Origin: Treponemataceae bacterium
GTDB lineage: Bacteria; Spirochaetota; Spirochaetia; Treponematales; Treponemataceae
Length of the DNA stretch: 47,956 nucleotides
NCBI GenBank assembly: GCA_024402495.1
Contig: JAKSTR010000011.1
Coordinates: 1 to 47,956, forward strand
Direction of reading: 5' to 3'
Shown here in pieces: positions 32,503 to 47,211 of the stretch. The notes beneath the pieces were generated by a model. It saw only the letters and a list, made by a program, of their open reading frames with translations. It ran no database searches and was not told the DNA's origin. Positions within the stretch are counted from its first letter, which is position 1; each line of letters begins with the position of its first letter. The position numbers and the translations under genes were made by a program.

Positions 32503-33763
32503 GCGCGTCTACATCGCACGAAAATATTTTGAAGCCGTTCAAAATACCAAAAATCTTATGAAGATTTTAAAATCGCAAACTTGAGACAAAAAAACCGTGC
32601 GCGCCACATCGCGCGAAATATTTTTAAGCCGTTCAAAATACCAAAAATCTTATGAATATTTCAAAATTGCAAACTCGCGACCCAAAAAAAAGCGCACAAT
32701 CTCGCACGAAAAAGTTTTTAAGCTGTTCAAAATACCAAAAATCTTATGAATATTCCAAAATTACAAACTCGCAACCCAAAACTGCGAACGCCACATCGCG
32801 CAAAATATTTTGAAACCAGCTAAAATATCAAAAATCTTATGAATATTCCAAATATTCCAAAATTGCTAACTTGCAAACCCGAAACATGCGCGCCACATCG
32901 CGCGATAATATTTTGAAACCAGCTAAAATACTAAAAATCTTATAAATATTTCAGAATTGCAAACTTGCACCACAAAATCGCGCACGCCATATCGCGCAAA
33001 ATATTTTGAATCTGGCAAAAATACCAAAAATCTTATGAATATTTCAAAATTGCAAACTTGCGCCACAAAAACCGGGCGCGCCACATCGCGCGAAATTATT
33101 TTGCAGTCGTTCAAAATATCAAAAATCTTATGAAGATTTCAAAATTGCTAACTTGCAAACCCGAAGCATGCGCGCCACATCGCGCGAAATATTTTGAAGC
33201 CGTTCAAAAGACCAAAAATCTTATGAAATTTTCCAAAATTGCAAACTTGCAATCAAAAACCACATGTACCACATCGTGCGAAAATATTTTGAAACCATTC
33301 AAAATACCAAAAATCTTATGAATATTTCAAAACTGCAAACTTACACAACCAAAACCGCACACGCCACCTCGCGCGAAAATATTTTTAAGCTGGTTAAAAT
33401 ACCAAAAATCTTATGAATATTTCAAAATCGCAAACTTGCGCGACCAAAAGCGCACACCACATCGCGCAAAAATATTTTGAAGCCGTTCAAAATACTAAAA
33501 ATCTTATGAATATTTCAAAATTGCACACTTGTAACCACGAAAATAGCACGCGCCATATCGCGCGAAATATTTTGAAGCCGTCCAAAATACCAAAAATCTT
33601 AGGAATATATCAAAATTGCAAACTTGCGACCAAAAAACCGTACCGCCACATCGCACGAAAAGATTTTGAAACCGTTCAAAAGACCAAAAATCTTATGAAT
33701 ATTTCAAAATAGCAAACTTGCGTACCCAAAAAGCACACGCACCACATCGCGCGAAAATATTTC
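32503..33763. repeat. ~94-bp tandem repeat array, 13 full diverged copies
   Basis: The core AAATCTTATG (or close variants) recurs at 32551, 32645, 32739, 32832, 32935, 33028, 33123, 33216, 33311, 33406, 33499, 33594 and 33688: spacings of 93-95 with one of 103. Each unit also holds CACATCGCGCGAAA, a hairpin ATTTTGAA-GCCG-TTCAAAAT and TTGCAAACTTGC. Spacers between cores are not unique, so it is not CRISPR. The period is not a multiple of 3, so short frames such as those at 33058-33321 and 33413-33712 are chance. It fills the gap from the NrnA-like gene to the sigma-like gene. Confidence 0.9.
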
Positions 33764-36235: not shown

Positions 36236-36292
36236 TTATAAGTGAGAGCTAATGACGTGCTGCACTTCGTAGAAGTCAACAACACGCACTGG

Positions 36293-36400
36293 TTCCGTGT
36301 ACAAAAACAGGTAACGATAGCCTTGTACTCTACTTCGCCTGTTTTTGTACAAAACCCACCAGACGGAACGGATTCTGTCTAATATTTTCCATGGAGGAAA
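36293..36400 (+). promoter_or_regulatory. structured leader of the first flaB with ANGGA motifs
   Basis: GTACAAAAACAGG (36299-36311) pairs perfectly with CCTGTTTTTGTAC (36338-36350); outer TTCCGT/ACGGAA (36293-36298/36363-36368) extends it. Two adjacent ACGGA motifs (36363, 36368) are followed by ATGGAGGA at the Shine-Dalgarno (36391-36398). These are CsrA-type recognition elements. Confidence 0.55.
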
Positions 36401-36403
36401 CTT

Positions 36404-37264
36404 ATGGTCATCAACCACAACATGTCGGCTATGTATTCACACCGCGTACTTGGTATCAGCAATGATAACGTACAGAAGAATATGGAAAAACTTTCATCAG
36501 GCATGAAAATCAATCGTGCAGGCGACGACGCTTCAGGACTTGCTGTATCTGAAAAGATGCGCGCACAGATCCGCGGTTTGAACCGTGCTTCAGCTAACGC
36601 CTCTGATGGTATCAGCTTCATCCAGACAACAGAAGGTTATTTGAATGAAACAACTGAAATCTTACAGAGACTTCGCGAACTTTCAGTTCAATCAGCTAAC
36701 GGCATCTATACCGCTGAAGACCGCATGCAGATTCAGGTTGAAGTTTCTCAGCTTGTTGCAGAAGTAGACCGCATCGCTAGCCAGGCTCAGTTCAACGGAA
36801 TGAACCTTCTTACAGGTCGTTTCGCACGTGCTACAGGTGAAAATGCTGTTACAGCTTCTATGTGGTTCCATATCGGCGCTAACATGGATCAGAGAATCAA
36901 AGTATACATCGGTACTATGACTGCTTCTGCTCTTGGTGTTCGCGAAATCGGTAGTGAAGCTGTTCTTAGCCTCGAAACTCCGGATGATGCCAACCGCGCA
37001 ATCAACACACTTGATGAAGCATTGAAAAAGGTAAACAAACAGAGAGCAGATCTCGGTGCTTACCAGAACCGTTTGGAACATGCAGTACGTGGTATTGACA
37101 ATACTGCTGAAAACCTCCAGGCATCTGAATCACGTATCCGCGATACAGATATGGCTGCTCAGATGGTTGAATTTACCAAGAATCAGGTTCTTACACAGGC
37201 TGGAACTGCTATGTTGGCACAGGCTAACAGCAATTCTCAGAATGTTCTCTCACTGCTTAGATAG
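36404..37264 (+). CDS. flaB: flagellin core protein FlaB (first copy)
   Basis: Core filament protein of the periplasmic flagellum. 286 residues, typical of spirochaete FlaB. The conserved N-terminal D0/D1 part ([39 protein letters not shown]) and C-terminal D1/D0 part ([33 protein letters not shown]) are present, with a short central region. GGAGGA lies upstream of the ATG. The second flaB follows 300 bp downstream, differing mainly in the middle third. Confidence 0.97.
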
Positions 37265-37308: not shown

Positions 37309-37346
37309 GAAGCCTTTGTGTGTTAAATTCAACACATAAGGGCTTC
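37309..37346 (+). terminator. stem-loop after the first flaB
   Basis: 16-bp stem GAAGCCTTTGTGTGTT/AACACATAAGGGCTTC with two G-U pairs and a 6-nt loop. It has no long T run, so it may be a terminator or a 3'-end stabiliser. Confidence 0.6.
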
Positions 37347-37415
37347 CCATTATATTTATGCCTGTTTTAGAGGGCATAGTTGATCTTTGAAAAACACCCC
37401 CGTGGTGTGTGTAGA

Positions 37416-37560
37416 CAGCAGGAACAGAAATTGTACGCAGTTTCTGTTTCTGCTGTATGAGTCTAAAACGAAATAAAAGAGGCGCAAAGCTTTTATTTTG
37501 CTCACTACATACACAGAACAAAAGCATGGAATGCTTTTGCAAAGGAAACACACGGAGGGT
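37416..37560 (+). promoter_or_regulatory. structured leader of the second flaB with GGA-loop hairpin
   Basis: Hairpin 1: CAGCAGGAACAGAAA/TTTCTGTTTCTGCTG (37416-37455, one wobble). Hairpin 2: AAAAGCAT-GGA-ATGCTTTT at 37520-37538, placing GGA in the loop. AAGGA (37542-37546) and ACGGA overlapping the GGAGG Shine-Dalgarno (37552-37558) follow. This matches the two-site arrangement of CsrA-repressed flagellin leaders. Confidence 0.65.
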
Positions 37561-37567
37561 TATTCTT

Positions 37568-38425
37568 ATGGTAATTAATCACAACATGACTTCAATGTAC
37601 GCTAACCGCGTTTTGGGAATTTCTAACGACGCCGTTCAGAAAGACATTGAAAAGCTCAGTTCAGGAATGAAAATAAACAGAGCAGGCGATGACGCTTCTG
37701 GTCTTGCAGTATCAGAAAAATTGCGTGCTCAGGTTCGTGGTTTGAATCAGGCTAACCGCAACATTCAGAATGGTATCAGCTTCATTCAGACAACTGAAGG
37801 ATATTTGCAGGAAACTACAGATGTTCTCCAGCGCATCCGCGAACTTTCAGTTCAGGCAGCAAACGGTATTTACACAGACGAAGACCGTATGCAGATTCAG
37901 GTTGAAGTATCTCAGCTTGTTGCCGAAGTAGACCGCATCGCAAGCCATGCTCAGTTCAACGGTATGAACCTTCTTACTGGTGGATTTGCTAATAACGATA
38001 CAACACAGCGTTTCTTACAGCTTCACGTTGGTGCAAACACTGACCAGAACGTTAAAGTATTCATCGGTACAATGACAGCTACAGCTCTTGGTTTGGCTGG
38101 ATTTGACGGAGATTCTAACTCGATGATTTCTCTTGCCACAGCAGAAAGCGCAAACATGACAATTGGAACAATTGACAGTGCTCTTAAAACTGTTAACAAA
38201 CAGCGCGCTGATCTTGGTGCATTCCAGAACAGATTTGAAACAGCATCTCGCGGTGTTGCAATTGCTGCTGAAAATCTTACAGCTTCTGAATCACGCATTC
38301 GTGATACAGATATGGCTGCACAAATGGTTGAATTTACCAGAAACCAGATTCTTACTCAGTCTGGTACAGCAATGTTGGCACAGGCCAATACGCAGTCACA
38401 GAACGTATTGACTATTTTACGCTAA
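37568..38425 (+). CDS. flaB: flagellin core protein FlaB (second copy)
   Basis: 285 residues, a paralogue of the preceding flaB. N- and C-terminal coiled-coil parts are nearly the same ([46 protein letters not shown]) and the centre differs ([14 protein letters not shown]). The frame is open from 37457, but GGAGGG lies 8 nt before the ATG at 37568 and the first copy starts at the same residue. Two FlaB proteins in tandem would co-assemble in the filament core. Confidence 0.97.
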
Positions 38426-38433
38426 CATAGGTC

Positions 38434-38520
38434 GCATTAAAGAGACTTCTGGATGTCATCTTTTTAATGCTTTATTTGATGCAGGAAGAAATGCGCCTTT
38501 CTTCCTGCCCTTTCTTTATT
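38434..38520 (+). terminator. two stem-loops between the second flaB and flaG
   Basis: GCATTAAA/TTTAATGC (38434-38470) and GCAGGAAGAA/TTCTTCCTGC (38481-38508), the latter followed by CCTTTCTTTATT. They likely let much flaB message end here while some reads into flaG. Confidence 0.6.
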
Positions 38521-38533
38521 AGGAGGCAAGCCC

Positions 38534-43270: not shown

Positions 43271-43498
43271 CTAGTTCAATTTGCTGAACATTGACAGAGC
43301 ATCAAGGTTCTGGGCGCTGACCAGGGCTGCACGGTTTTCAGTTTGAATTGCATTATAAACTTCCTGACGAAAAACCTTTACATCTTTTGGAGCTTCTACG
43401 CCGATTTTTACCTGCTCGCCCCTAACTTCGATAATTGTAATGGTTATATCGTTTCCAATTTTTATTTTTTCGTTTGTTTTTCGGGTTAAAATCAGCAT
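43271..43498 (-). CDS. csrA: carbon storage regulator CsrA
   Basis: RNA-binding translational regulator that recognises GGA in hairpin loops. 75 residues: [46 protein letters not shown] are the family core, with a ~25-residue C-terminal tail. Its ATG overlaps the end of fliW by 7 nt. In Bacillus, CsrA represses flagellin translation and FliW relieves it; the GGA-rich flaB leaders here fit. Confidence 0.96.
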
Positions 43499-43935
43499 TT
43501 TTTACCCCGTTTCAATTCTTCAAGAATATTGTGCTTTGTTGCCCAGCGCGAATCGCAGGAAATAATCTGAATACACTTATTATTCTTTCTGTTAAAAATA
43601 AGCGGTCCCTGCAAGTTTGCAGTTACAGCAGAACCGTCTGCCGGCAAAGTAACAATAGCCATTACTTGAACATCTTCAGGCGAAGTAATGCCGATTGATT
43701 TCAGGCTTTCATCATCAACGTCAACTTCGTAATCCTGACAAAATAAAAAAGGATCAATCAGCAAAAATGAGAGTTCACTATTTTCAATTGACTGAAACCA
43801 CATAAAAGGTTTGTGCTCAGACTGAATCATTGCAAAAGAATGAAATTCTTCAAAACCGAACAGACCGTCTGGAATTGAATAAATCGAATCTTCCGTAACA
43901 TTTACAGTGCCCATTGTTCTTGTCTTAATTTCCAT
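43492..43935 (-). CDS. fliW: flagellar assembly factor FliW
   Basis: Binds flagellin and CsrA to couple flagellin synthesis to secretion. 147 residues from the ATG at 43935 (AGGG 6 nt upstream); an in-frame ATG 15 nt earlier is less likely. Family motifs: [31 protein letters not shown], and [12 protein letters not shown] near the end. Immediately upstream of csrA with overlap, downstream of flgL. Confidence 0.95.
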
Positions 43936-43956
43936 ATAATCCCTGTGCATTTAGAC

Positions 43957-44022: not shown

Positions 44023-45270
44023 TTATTTTACATAGTCAAGCAATGTATTTCTATACATTCTTGCCGCTGTACTTAATGTTGCCTGCTGAACGTATTCAAG
44101 CATTTTCAAGTTTGTAATTGCTTCTGTAATATCAAGATCGCCTTCGCGTGCAACCAGATTGTTTACATTAAGGATTTCGTTGCCGATTCTTGCAAGGTTC
44201 TGTCCGGCACGTTCATATTTTGCGCCGCTTTCTGCAAGGTTTCCTGTCAGGCTGCTTATTCCCAAATCGATTGTACCCAGAACGCGGCCGCCAATTGATT
44301 CCTGATCGCCCGCAATCATTGCATCGCGCAAGGCAATTACGGCGTCAAACAGAGAACCGCCTGCAAGACTTGCGGTCGGGTTAATGTTGTTCGGCGGGCG
44401 CTGGCTGGAATCTTTAATCATGCCCAAATCGAACAAAGTTGTCATATCACCCTTGTCTTCAAGCCAAAGCTGACGTGCATCCGTTGTCTGCAATGTCAAG
44501 CCGTTGCTTACCGGGTCAAGGAAAGCTTTTACAGCGGCACCGCTATCGTTGATTTTTGCCATGATAGCATGAATATTATCGCCTGCCTTTAATTTAATTT
44601 CCTTTCCGTCAACAGAAATTACGCCGTCTTCTGGTACAACATAGGAAGTTGCATCGCGCATACCAAAAAGTGTCTGCTGTTCTGCCCAAAAGATGCGGCT
44701 GCCGGCGTGCGAGGTTTCCAGATACTGACCTTCGTCAACTTCAATATTCTGGCTTTCTACGTTGCCGTTATACATTACGTTTGTAATAAGCATTTCGCCT
44801 GCACCCGGAACAGAACCGTATACAACATCAAAAGCAGTTGTATTGCTGCGCGTACCGGCAAAAAGCGAAGTACCGTCAGGTCCGGTTGCGTTGGCATTAA
44901 GTACCAGTTCTTTCAAAAGTTCGTCAACTTCAATTGACATATTTTTCAAATCTTCCGGTGTGTATGTACCGTGCGCGCCCTGCACTGCAAGTTCGCGTAC
45001 GCGCTGCATTACCTGCAAAGACTGGTTTACATAGCCTTCTGTTACAGAATACTGGTCGCTGATTAACTGGGCATTTTTTTCAAAAGTTTCCAGACGCTTG
45101 CCGTAAGATTCGTAGCGAACCAGGTGACCGGCAGCAATCGGGTCATCGCGCAGCTGCTGAATGCGGCGCTGGCTTCCCATCTGGTTAGAAGCCTTGTTTA
45201 CTCTAAGTTCCTGACGACGCAAATTGTACTGAACGTCGTTATTTGACATATTTGAACTGATTCTGTGCAT
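44023..45270 (-). CDS. flgL: flagellar hook-filament junction protein FlgL
   Basis: Joins FlgK to the filament. 415 residues. The flagellin-like N-terminus (MHRISSNMSNNDVQYNLRRQ; DDPIAAGHLVRYESY) and C-terminus (LDITEAITNLKMLEYVQQAT; TAARMYRNTLLDYV) are coiled-coil; the middle is a variable beta region. AAGGAG lies 8 nt upstream. It follows flgK after 30 bp. Confidence 0.95.
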   Translation of the reverse strand: MHRISSNMSNNDVQYNLRRQELRVNKASNQMGSQRRIQQLRDDPIAAGHLVRYESYGKRLETFEKNAQLISDQYSVTEGYVNQSLQVMQRVRELAVQGAHGTYTPEDLKNMSIEVDELLKELVLNANATGPDGTSLFAGTRSNTTAFDVVYGSVPGAGEMLITNVMYNGNVESQNIEVDEGQYLETSHAGSRIFWAEQQTLFGMRDATSYVVPEDGVISVDGKEIKLKAGDNIHAIMAKINDSGAAVKAFLDPVSNGLTLQTTDARQLWLEDKGDMTTLFDLGMIKDSSQRPPNNINPTASLAGGSLFDAVIALRDAMIAGDQESIGGRVLGTIDLGISSLTGNLAESGAKYERAGQNLARIGNEILNVNNLVAREGDLDITEAITNLKMLEYVQQATLSTAARMYRNTLLDYVK

Positions 45271-45300: not shown

Positions 45301-47211
45301 TTACACGCCCAAACGGTTGATAACTGTATCAAGCATTTCGTCCATAACGGTAACAATTTTTGCTGCTGCGTTATATCCGTGCTGAAATTTAATGATGTCA
45401 GCAAGTTCTTCATCAATATTTACGCCCGAAATTGATTCGCGCAAAGAACGCAAGTCTTCCATAATAGAACGCTGGCTTGCCAGATTCATTTCTGCCTGTT
45501 CGCCTTTTAAGCCAACATGAGTAACAGAATCGGCAAAATAATCGTCCAATGTAGCAGAACGTCCAATCATAATATTTGAATTGCGCAGACCGGCAATTTC
45601 CAGAGCAGCGCGACCGTCACCGTCTTCGCGGCTTGTATTGTAAATCGGGTAACTTGCTGCTACAGAAAGCACATCGCGCTTCAATGCCGGGTTAATTTCA
45701 AAATATGCGGCAGGGTCTGCAACCGGTGCAACGCTGAACTGTGCGCCGCTTTCCAGCTTGCCTGAAACAACTTCGGCTGTATCTGCAACAAAAGCGTTTA
45801 CGGCATCTGCTCTTGCAAAATCAAAAGCCCCTTCTTCACCGCGGCCGCGCAAAATGCCTGCGTAGCCAACCAGAAAGTGACCGCTGTCTTCAATATGGCG
45901 AATTACAAAATCAGGATTTGCAGAATCGTAAGCAGTTGTTGCCTTTAAAACCAGCTTGTTATTTTTGTCCAGATAAGCTTTTACTTCGCCGTCGTAATCG
46001 TTAATGCGCTTTACAACTGCGGCAACGCTGTCTGTTGAATAATACGGCACCTGAATATTTGAATTTTTGCCGGAAATTGTGATTGTTCCTTCAAGACCAA
46101 TCTGTTCTGTTTCTTTCAGGCTGTTTTTGCCGCTTACACGGAAAATATAGGAAGTATCTTCAACACCGTCACCGTTGCGGTCATAATTTCCGTTTACGTT
46201 CATAACGAACGGCTGTTCAACAAAAAAGTCCAGGCCTGTTACGTTGTTTGCACCGATTGCGTTGCGGTGAACATCATTAACAAGGTCGGCAAAGTTCATA
46301 ACCATTGTATTAAGGTTCTGCTTTTCGTAGCGAATGTCCACGTCGCGCAATTCAATTAATGCGCCAAGAGAACCGCCAGTAATAACAGCATCGTTTTCTG
46401 TATCTGCCCAAATTACTTTAGAATAACCTGTGCCGTCCAAAATCGGTTCAACAGCAAAATTGCGTGCAACCTTGCCCTGTACCAAAATATGTCCGTCAAT
46501 ATGAACCATAAATTCATCCGGGTCGCGGTCGTCTGTAGTTACGTTGATAAGGCTGGAAAGTTTTTCAACAAGCAAATCGCGGCGGTCAAGCAAATCGTTA
46601 GGATTATCGCCCATTGCCTTGGAATTAACGATTTCTCTGTTAATTTCTGCAATCTGGTTTGTAATATCGTTAACCTGTTTTACGGAAGCTTCAATGTCAC
46701 CGTTGATGAGCGTATTGATGCCTTCCAAACCCTTGTGGCGGTTATGAATTGAGTTTACAAGCGAATCACCGCGGCTGATTACCGACATACGGGCAGCTGT
46801 AGATTCAGGATACATGCTGAGTTCCTGCCATGATTCCCAGAATTTATCCATGGTTGTTCTGATTGAAACGTTATCAGGTTCGTTGTAAACGTTTTCAATC
46901 ATGAAATAATATTTTTCGCGGGTTTCCCAATAGCTTTCCTGATTGCTTTGGGCAACAATACGTTTATCAAGCATTTCGTCGCGGATGCGTTCAATGCTTT
47001 GTACCGTAACGCCCTGACCAATCTGTCCTGGTGTTTCCGCGCGGCTTAAATCCGGGCGGTAAATCGGGTCAAAAGCCCGTACCTGTACACGCTGGCGCGA
47101 ATAGCCTTCGGTATCAGCGTTAGAAACGTTATGTCCAGCAGTATTGATTGCCTGAGCCTGAGCCATAAGGCTGCGTTTGCCCATTTCGATACCTGCAAAT
47201 GAAGATGCCAT
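45301..47211 (-). CDS. flgK: flagellar hook-associated protein FlgK
   Basis: First junction protein on the hook. 636 residues. N-terminal rod/hook motif: GKRSLMAQAQAINTAGHNVS, then NADTEGYSRQRVQV; the C-terminal end GVNIDEELADIIKFQHGYNA and AAKIVTVMDEMLDTVINRLG is diagnostic. The middle is variable. AAGGAG precedes the ATG. A TTGAAAG/CTTTCAA hairpin lies upstream at 47233-47260. Confidence 0.97.
   Translation of the reverse strand: MASSFAGIEMGKRSLMAQAQAINTAGHNVSNADTEGYSRQRVQVRAFDPIYRPDLSRAETPGQIGQGVTVQSIERIRDEMLDKRIVAQSNQESYWETREKYYFMIENVYNEPDNVSIRTTMDKFWESWQELSMYPESTAARMSVISRGDSLVNSIHNRHKGLEGINTLINGDIEASVKQVNDITNQIAEINREIVNSKAMGDNPNDLLDRRDLLVEKLSSLINVTTDDRDPDEFMVHIDGHILVQGKVARNFAVEPILDGTGYSKVIWADTENDAVITGGSLGALIELRDVDIRYEKQNLNTMVMNFADLVNDVHRNAIGANNVTGLDFFVEQPFVMNVNGNYDRNGDGVEDTSYIFRVSGKNSLKETEQIGLEGTITISGKNSNIQVPYYSTDSVAAVVKRINDYDGEVKAYLDKNNKLVLKATTAYDSANPDFVIRHIEDSGHFLVGYAGILRGRGEEGAFDFARADAVNAFVADTAEVVSGKLESGAQFSVAPVADPAAYFEINPALKRDVLSVAASYPIYNTSREDGDGRAALEIAGLRNSNIMIGRSATLDDYFADSVTHVGLKGEQAEMNLASQRSIMEDLRSLRESISGVNIDEELADIIKFQHGYNAAAKIVTVMDEMLDTVINRLGV

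Follow-up and report, generated by a model that had tools for sequence, protein, structure and literature searches.

Candidate CsrA site pairs in the leaders of two flagellin genes of a Treponemataceae bacterium, one of them within a larger structured leader RNA

Introduction

CsrA control of spirochaete flaB genes has already been proposed; it was shown in Borrelia, backed by binding in Leptospira, and suggested without data in Treponema denticola. CsrA represses Borrelia burgdorferi flaB and binds the Leptospira flaB3 and flaB4 leaders through GGA. For T. denticola, CsrA sites near the Shine-Dalgarno (SD) sequences of flaB1 and flaB2 were reported together with a flgN-flgK-flgL-fliW-csrA cluster (PMC9481697).

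Canonical CsrA recognition requires GGA. The SELEX consensus of the protein, RUACARGGAUGU, places GGA in a hexaloop with AC/GU closing, and the majority of the selected ligands have at most four contiguous pairs and a six-base loop. CsrA bridges sites lying 10-63 nt apart, with an optimum above 18 nt (PMC7652899). A further family that bears on this work is the Termite-flg RNA (Rfam RF01729; Weinberg 2010, PMC2864571), which was described for the termite hindgut only and classed as cis-regulatory with no function assigned.

We analyzed a 47,956-nt stretch of DNA (the window) from a Treponemataceae bacterium (GCA_024402495.1, contig JAKSTR010000011.1). The original prediction had placed a hairpin with GGA in its loop, followed by a second GGA at the SD, in the second flaB leader of this window. 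The pair was likened to the two-site hag leader of Bacillus subtilis, and a FliW/CsrA loop was suggested.

Results

The flagellin genes and the fliW-csrA genes

The flagellin gene pair consists of flaB1 (36404..37264, plus strand, 286 aa) and flaB2 (37568..38425, plus strand, 285 aa, ATG at 37568), the latter with the Pfam Flagellin_N and Flagellin_C domains. The presence of csrA and fliW in the window, a part of the original prediction, was confirmed for the minus strand. The csrA gene (43271..43498) encodes 75 aa (PF02599, E 4e-25; TIGR00202, 97.6 bits against a cut-off of 70.1) and fliW (43492..43950) encodes 152 aa (PF02623, E 1.5e-39). Both are single-copy in the genome, and the fliW stop overlaps the csrA start (ATGCTGA). 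Upstream of them on the same strand lie flgL (44023..45270) and flgK (45301..47211), with TIGR02550 and TIGR02492 over cut-off. CsrA keeps Leu4, Arg6 and Arg44, and carries Asn55 in an extended C-terminus; in B. subtilis, this asparagine has a role in FliW binding. A fliW-like open frame was found directly upstream of csrA in all 30 csrA loci of relatives. We did not find csrA in 7 of 50 genomes, which may be incomplete. Two other candidates for csrA or fliW, an 86-aa frame (41737) and a 196-aa frame (40963), had no family match and were rejected, the true genes being those on the minus strand.

A 16-bp terminator-like hairpin was observed at 37309-37346, between flaB1 and flaB2, and transcription of the two genes may accordingly be separate in part. 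A strong hairpin (GCAGGAAGAAA..TTTCTTCCTGC, 38480-38525) between flaB2 and flaG is probably the flaB2 terminator. The genome also has a third flagellin gene (L085; G000:C118:18562-19416, minus strand) that is 71% identical to flaB2 and has the SD AAGGGAGAT. No GGA-loop hairpin was found upstream of it, and this gene seems to be without the two-site arrangement. Elsewhere in the window, a DHH-family gene and the open frame that follows it are separated by a tandem array (32503-33762) with 13.3 copies of a 94-bp unit (GCGCGCCACATCGCGCGAAAATATTTTGAAGCCGTTCAAAATACCAAAAATCTTATGAATATTTC...) at 78% matches.

A GGA hairpin precedes the SD of both flagellin genes

The predicted hairpin of the flaB2 leader was confirmed at 37519..37539 on the plus strand (CAAAAGCAT-GGA-ATGCTTTTG, 9 pairs), and constitutes a putative upstream CsrA site. 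Folded alone it has -8.7 kcal/mol. When the 66 nt preceding the flaB2 SD were dinucleotide-shuffled 10,000 times, 3 shuffles matched the native GGA-loop hairpin in stability, while any GGA-loop hairpin of at least 5 bp appeared in 401. Comparing the 47 distinct GGAGG..ATG sites of this genome, which came from genome pieces retrieved after a genome-wide pattern search, we find that flaB2 ranks first and flaB1 second for an upstream GGA-loop hairpin. The claim that GGA sits in the loop stood in so far as GGA occupies 37528-37530, but the predicted loop is a triloop and CsrA favors a hexaloop. A C[AUGGAAU]G loop requires the opening of two inner A-U pairs.

The pair had been named for the second flaB leader only; the first flaB leader carries the same pair. 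Its GGA-loop hairpin (36361..36380, plus strand, AGACGGAA-CGGA-TTCTGTCT, GGA at 36370-36372) is again a putative upstream CsrA site, and 4 of 10,000 shuffles were equally stable. The flaB1 SD with its putative second CsrA site (CATGGAGG, 36390..36397, plus strand) follows 23 nt from the loop GGA.

In the flaB2 leader, the SD with the putative second CsrA site is CACGGAGGG at 37551..37559 on the plus strand, where CACGGAGG covers 37551-37558 and ACGGAGG covers 37552-37558. The stated distance of 26 nt to the first site also held (GGA 37528-37530 to GGA 37554-37556). Both GGA motifs of the predicted pair are thus present, but a third GGA between them (AAAGGAAAC, 37544..37546, plus strand) had been overlooked. 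This third GGA is not conserved in the genus, being absent from the other genomes of the genus (L171, L172, L174-L177).

The flagellin SD site has the CsrA-like form CANGGA. Its CA lies outside the core pairing with 16S rRNA and resembles the CsrA consensus RUACARGGAUGU, as do the flaB loop and its flanks. All 129 distinct flagellin contexts have the CANGGAGG form of the SD, which recurs at 24 of 142 GGAGG..ATG sites elsewhere in these loci. The distance from loop GGA to SD GGA in relatives has a median of 23-25 nt and is mostly 21-30 nt. The distances in the window, 26 nt for flaB2 and 23 nt for flaB1, both fall within the bridging range of a CsrA dimer.

The hairpins are conserved with compensatory changes

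For comparison, we used 80 related loci; in the majority both flagellin genes were present, and none was recognized as belonging to T. denticola or T. pallidum. The counts come from related, non-independent sequences, and measure conservation, not numbers of events. Applying a strict rule, under which the GGA-loop hairpin had to reach -4 kcal/mol, we found the hairpin in 72 of 75 flaB1 leaders, where shuffles give 1.7 expected, and in 43 of 77 flaB2 leaders (2.9 expected). All 60 distinct flaB1 hairpins show an A-N-GGA-N loop, with up to six pair types at the stem positions, and each of pairs 1-8 is paired more often than independent arms predict. We read this pattern as selection for a displayed GGA and not for the stem sequence. 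The flaB2 GGA hairpin (helix 3 of alignment A3) shows compensatory changes in 7 of 7 pairs with 94% of cells paired. Conservation of the hairpin across Treponema had been named as a check on the original prediction. The GGA loop was kept in the 6 other genus genomes found by the covariance model R1 (see below), and beyond the genus the flaB1 counts and the strong compensatory change extend the conservation.

These data also bear on a chance hairpin next to an ordinary SD sequence. Most strong SD sequences contain GGA and the SD half alone is uninformative. The scarcity of equally stable hairpins in shuffles (3 of 10,000), the covarying conservation in scores of genomes and the CANGGAGG enrichment speak against chance, an explanation to which we give practically no weight and which conservation has already refuted.

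The flaB2 hairpin belongs to a larger leader RNA

The flaB2 hairpin exists as predicted, but it forms part of a larger structured leader. We model it as the 3′ arm of a leader with a predicted length of about 135 nt and a predicted three-way-junction domain. In the 5′ domain (37405..37514, plus strand), the predicted fold encloses two hairpins in a helix (about UGUGUAG/CUACAUACACA); the GGA hairpin follows this domain, and many relatives share this shape. The minimum-energy fold of 37408-37600 has -56.8 kcal/mol (z -5.6), and none of 200 shuffles was as stable. An invariant GGCGC (37481..37485, plus strand) is apical in the second hairpin of the 5′ domain. At -98 to -52, GGCGC was present in 77 of 77 flaB2 leaders against 10.9 expected from shuffles, and in 3 of 75 flaB1 leaders.

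We built R1 on 25 flaB2 leaders, all taken from other genomes, leaving the window out. It matched the window at 37441..37552 on the plus strand with 62 bits (E 1.8e-12 for 263 kb, 2.0e-11 genome-wide). It also gave one match each in 18 other relatives, always immediately before the second flagellin gene. Two further R1 matches in the own genome (29-30 bits) were set aside as noise; the one that was fetched has no adjoining flagellin start. In alignment A3, which was fitted to the structure and therefore leans towards it, 92% of cells are paired and 17 of 17 pairs show compensatory changes; shuffles and slid controls were far lower. The sequence GGCGCAAA had hinted at a c-di-GMP riboswitch, but no riboswitch family matched at the site.

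The flaB1 leader (36259-36390, and relatives) is a second conserved structured RNA in its own right, with a CTTCGTAGAAG hairpin, a long hairpin with GCCTTG and the GGA hairpin. The long hairpin lies at 36299..36350 on the plus strand, with AGCCTTGT (36319-36326) conserved in its apical part. GCCTTG is invariant in the 23 flaB1 leaders of alignment A4, whose helix 2 shows compensatory changes in 7 of 8 pairs. Searching Rfam, we obtained no credible match for the flaB1 leader of the window.

These observations raise the question of whether the hairpin is kept mainly as part of a Termite-flg-like leader RNA that is read by another factor or influences RNA stability or the access of ribosomes. In that case, CsrA binding would be of secondary importance, or restricted to those lineages that have GGA. 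Such a role would suit the upstream domain, which shows conservation and covariation of its own (compensatory changes in all 17 modelled pairs; GGCGC in 77 of 77), and the reported binding of FliW to the hag leader for an unknown reason (PMC6529632). However, the upstream structure differs between flaB1 and flaB2 leaders, while the GGA hairpin and the CANGGAGG SD are common to both, so the GGA site pair is the shared feature. We regard the larger-leader explanation as rather unlikely.

Half of the flaB2 leaders retain the hairpin with an ANGAN loop

In 39 of 78 flaB2 leaders, the hairpin was retained but the loop read A-N-G-A-N, with one G fewer; this count includes two automatic labels (L020, L050) that were corrected by eye. 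The 32 distinct hairpins of this type that we analyzed all have the ANGAN loop closed by C-G, and show compensatory stem changes. Such flaB2 leaders occur, for instance, in T. berlinense and T. saccharophilum. The genomes concerned still have GGA in the flaB1 leader. On the flaB2 protein tree, the change between ANGGAN and ANGAN takes about 4 steps. Since canonical recognition needs GGA, the ANGAN hairpins may bind CsrA in another way or serve another role, and their persistence also favors the larger-leader explanation.

In six ANGAN-type leaders (L027, L028, L031, L032, L034, L055), five or more T in a row follow the hairpin, terminator-like and just before the flaB2 SD. An intrinsic terminator or attenuator before flaB2 would account for a stem followed by such a run, as seen in 6 of 35 GA-type leaders (e.g. 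L028, L032, T8). However, T runs of this length occur in 0 of 74 flaB1 leaders and 1 of 29 GGA-type flaB2 leaders, and in the window CAAAGG directly follows the hairpin, which the terminator scan does not call. We rejected the terminator reading for the window, and consider it very improbable.

Relation to Termite-flg

In termite-gut relatives, RF01729 covers the full flaB2 leader with up to 62.7 bits (gathering threshold 40), and its last hairpin is the GGA hairpin. Among the 51 searched genomes, matches of at least 40 bits came from 8, all of them relatives. Neither the window nor its genome gave a match to RF01729; the window leader, being below the gathering threshold, is not filed under RF01729, and we do not count it as a member. 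Like Termite-flg, it lies upstream of an orthologous flagellin gene and has a closed domain, with GGCGC in apical position, followed by a GGA-loop hairpin. Two intermediates stand between the groups, L046 (26.9 bits with RF01729) and L057, a weak bridge at which RF01729 (31.5 bits) and R1 (18.1 bits, E 0.04) match the same place. A second model of the window-type leaders, R2, was built as a bridge but did not recover typical termite leaders, and the link therefore rests on synteny, shape, GGCGC and the weak bridge L057. Taken together, homology of the flaB2 leader with Termite-flg appears supported by position, shape, GGCGC and the two intermediates.

Discussion

We propose, with a probability of roughly 85%, that each of the two flaB leaders acts as a CsrA repression element with two sites, as part of a FliW/CsrA loop. 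One pocket of a CsrA dimer would take the GGA shown by the upstream hairpin, and the other would take the CANGGA in the SD region, 23-26 nt away. The bound dimer would block the ribosome. FliW, encoded together with CsrA, would lift the block unless held by unexported flagellin, and flagellin translation would thereby follow export.

The sequences directly show the two sites with their conservation and covariation, the distance between them, and the presence of csrA and fliW. That CsrA binds, that the ribosome is blocked and that FliW acts as an antagonist we infer from hag, Borrelia and Leptospira. As an inference, the originally suggested FliW/CsrA two-site interpretation is supported by the conserved hairpin, the CANGGA form of the SD, the suitable spacing and the adjacent fliW-csrA genes. 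Against it, the flaB2 loop of 39 of 78 relatives has no GGA with the stem kept; the flaB2 hairpin of the window is a stable predicted triloop, unlike most SELEX ligands; and the additional flagellin gene L085 is without a GGA hairpin.

More tentatively, Termite-flg and the Treponema flaB2 leaders may be one broad spirochaete family, in which a sensor-like domain joined to a CsrA hairpin would integrate CsrA/FliW with a second signal. Many Treponema would then have changed ANGGAN to ANGAN, so that CsrA recognizes the loop less well or differently, or a different protein binds it, and the two flagellins are uncoupled. We hold this to be a possible reading, if a doubtful one. It would offer a concrete function that can be tested, namely control of flagellin translation by CsrA/FliW, for an RNA family to which none has been assigned since 2010, and would widen the range of that family from termite guts to a broad Treponema group. 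The paralogues also provide a natural experiment, in which two flagellins of the same filament differ in that one CsrA loop is strictly kept and the other is changed in many species. This contrast between the flaB1 and flaB2 loops could help explain how flagellin ratios are set in spirochaetes.

The newness of the present case lies in its context, namely the composite flaB2 leader and its resemblance to Termite-flg; in a limited literature search, we did not find the composite leader, the Termite-flg link or the ANGAN variant. The T. denticola report (PMC9481697) is a recent observation that gives data neither on a hairpin nor on how far one is conserved, and by gene order, the second flaB of the window may match T. 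denticola flaB3 and not flaB2. With the Borrelia and Leptospira flaB genes, the locus shares GGA sites near the SD and a csrA gene in a flg-fliW-csrA cluster. Those cases differ in being known from experiment, and the accessible portions of the reports describe no conserved structured leader of such kind. The likeness to B. subtilis hag comprises a flagellin leader with CsrA sites over the SD and upstream, adjacent and overlapping fliW and csrA genes, and the same proposed feedback. Unlike hag, the arrangement here is predicted from sequence, and the flaB2 loop GGA is lost in half of the relatives. Also unlike hag, two flagellin genes are under putative control, and the flaB2 site is joined to a conserved structured leader.
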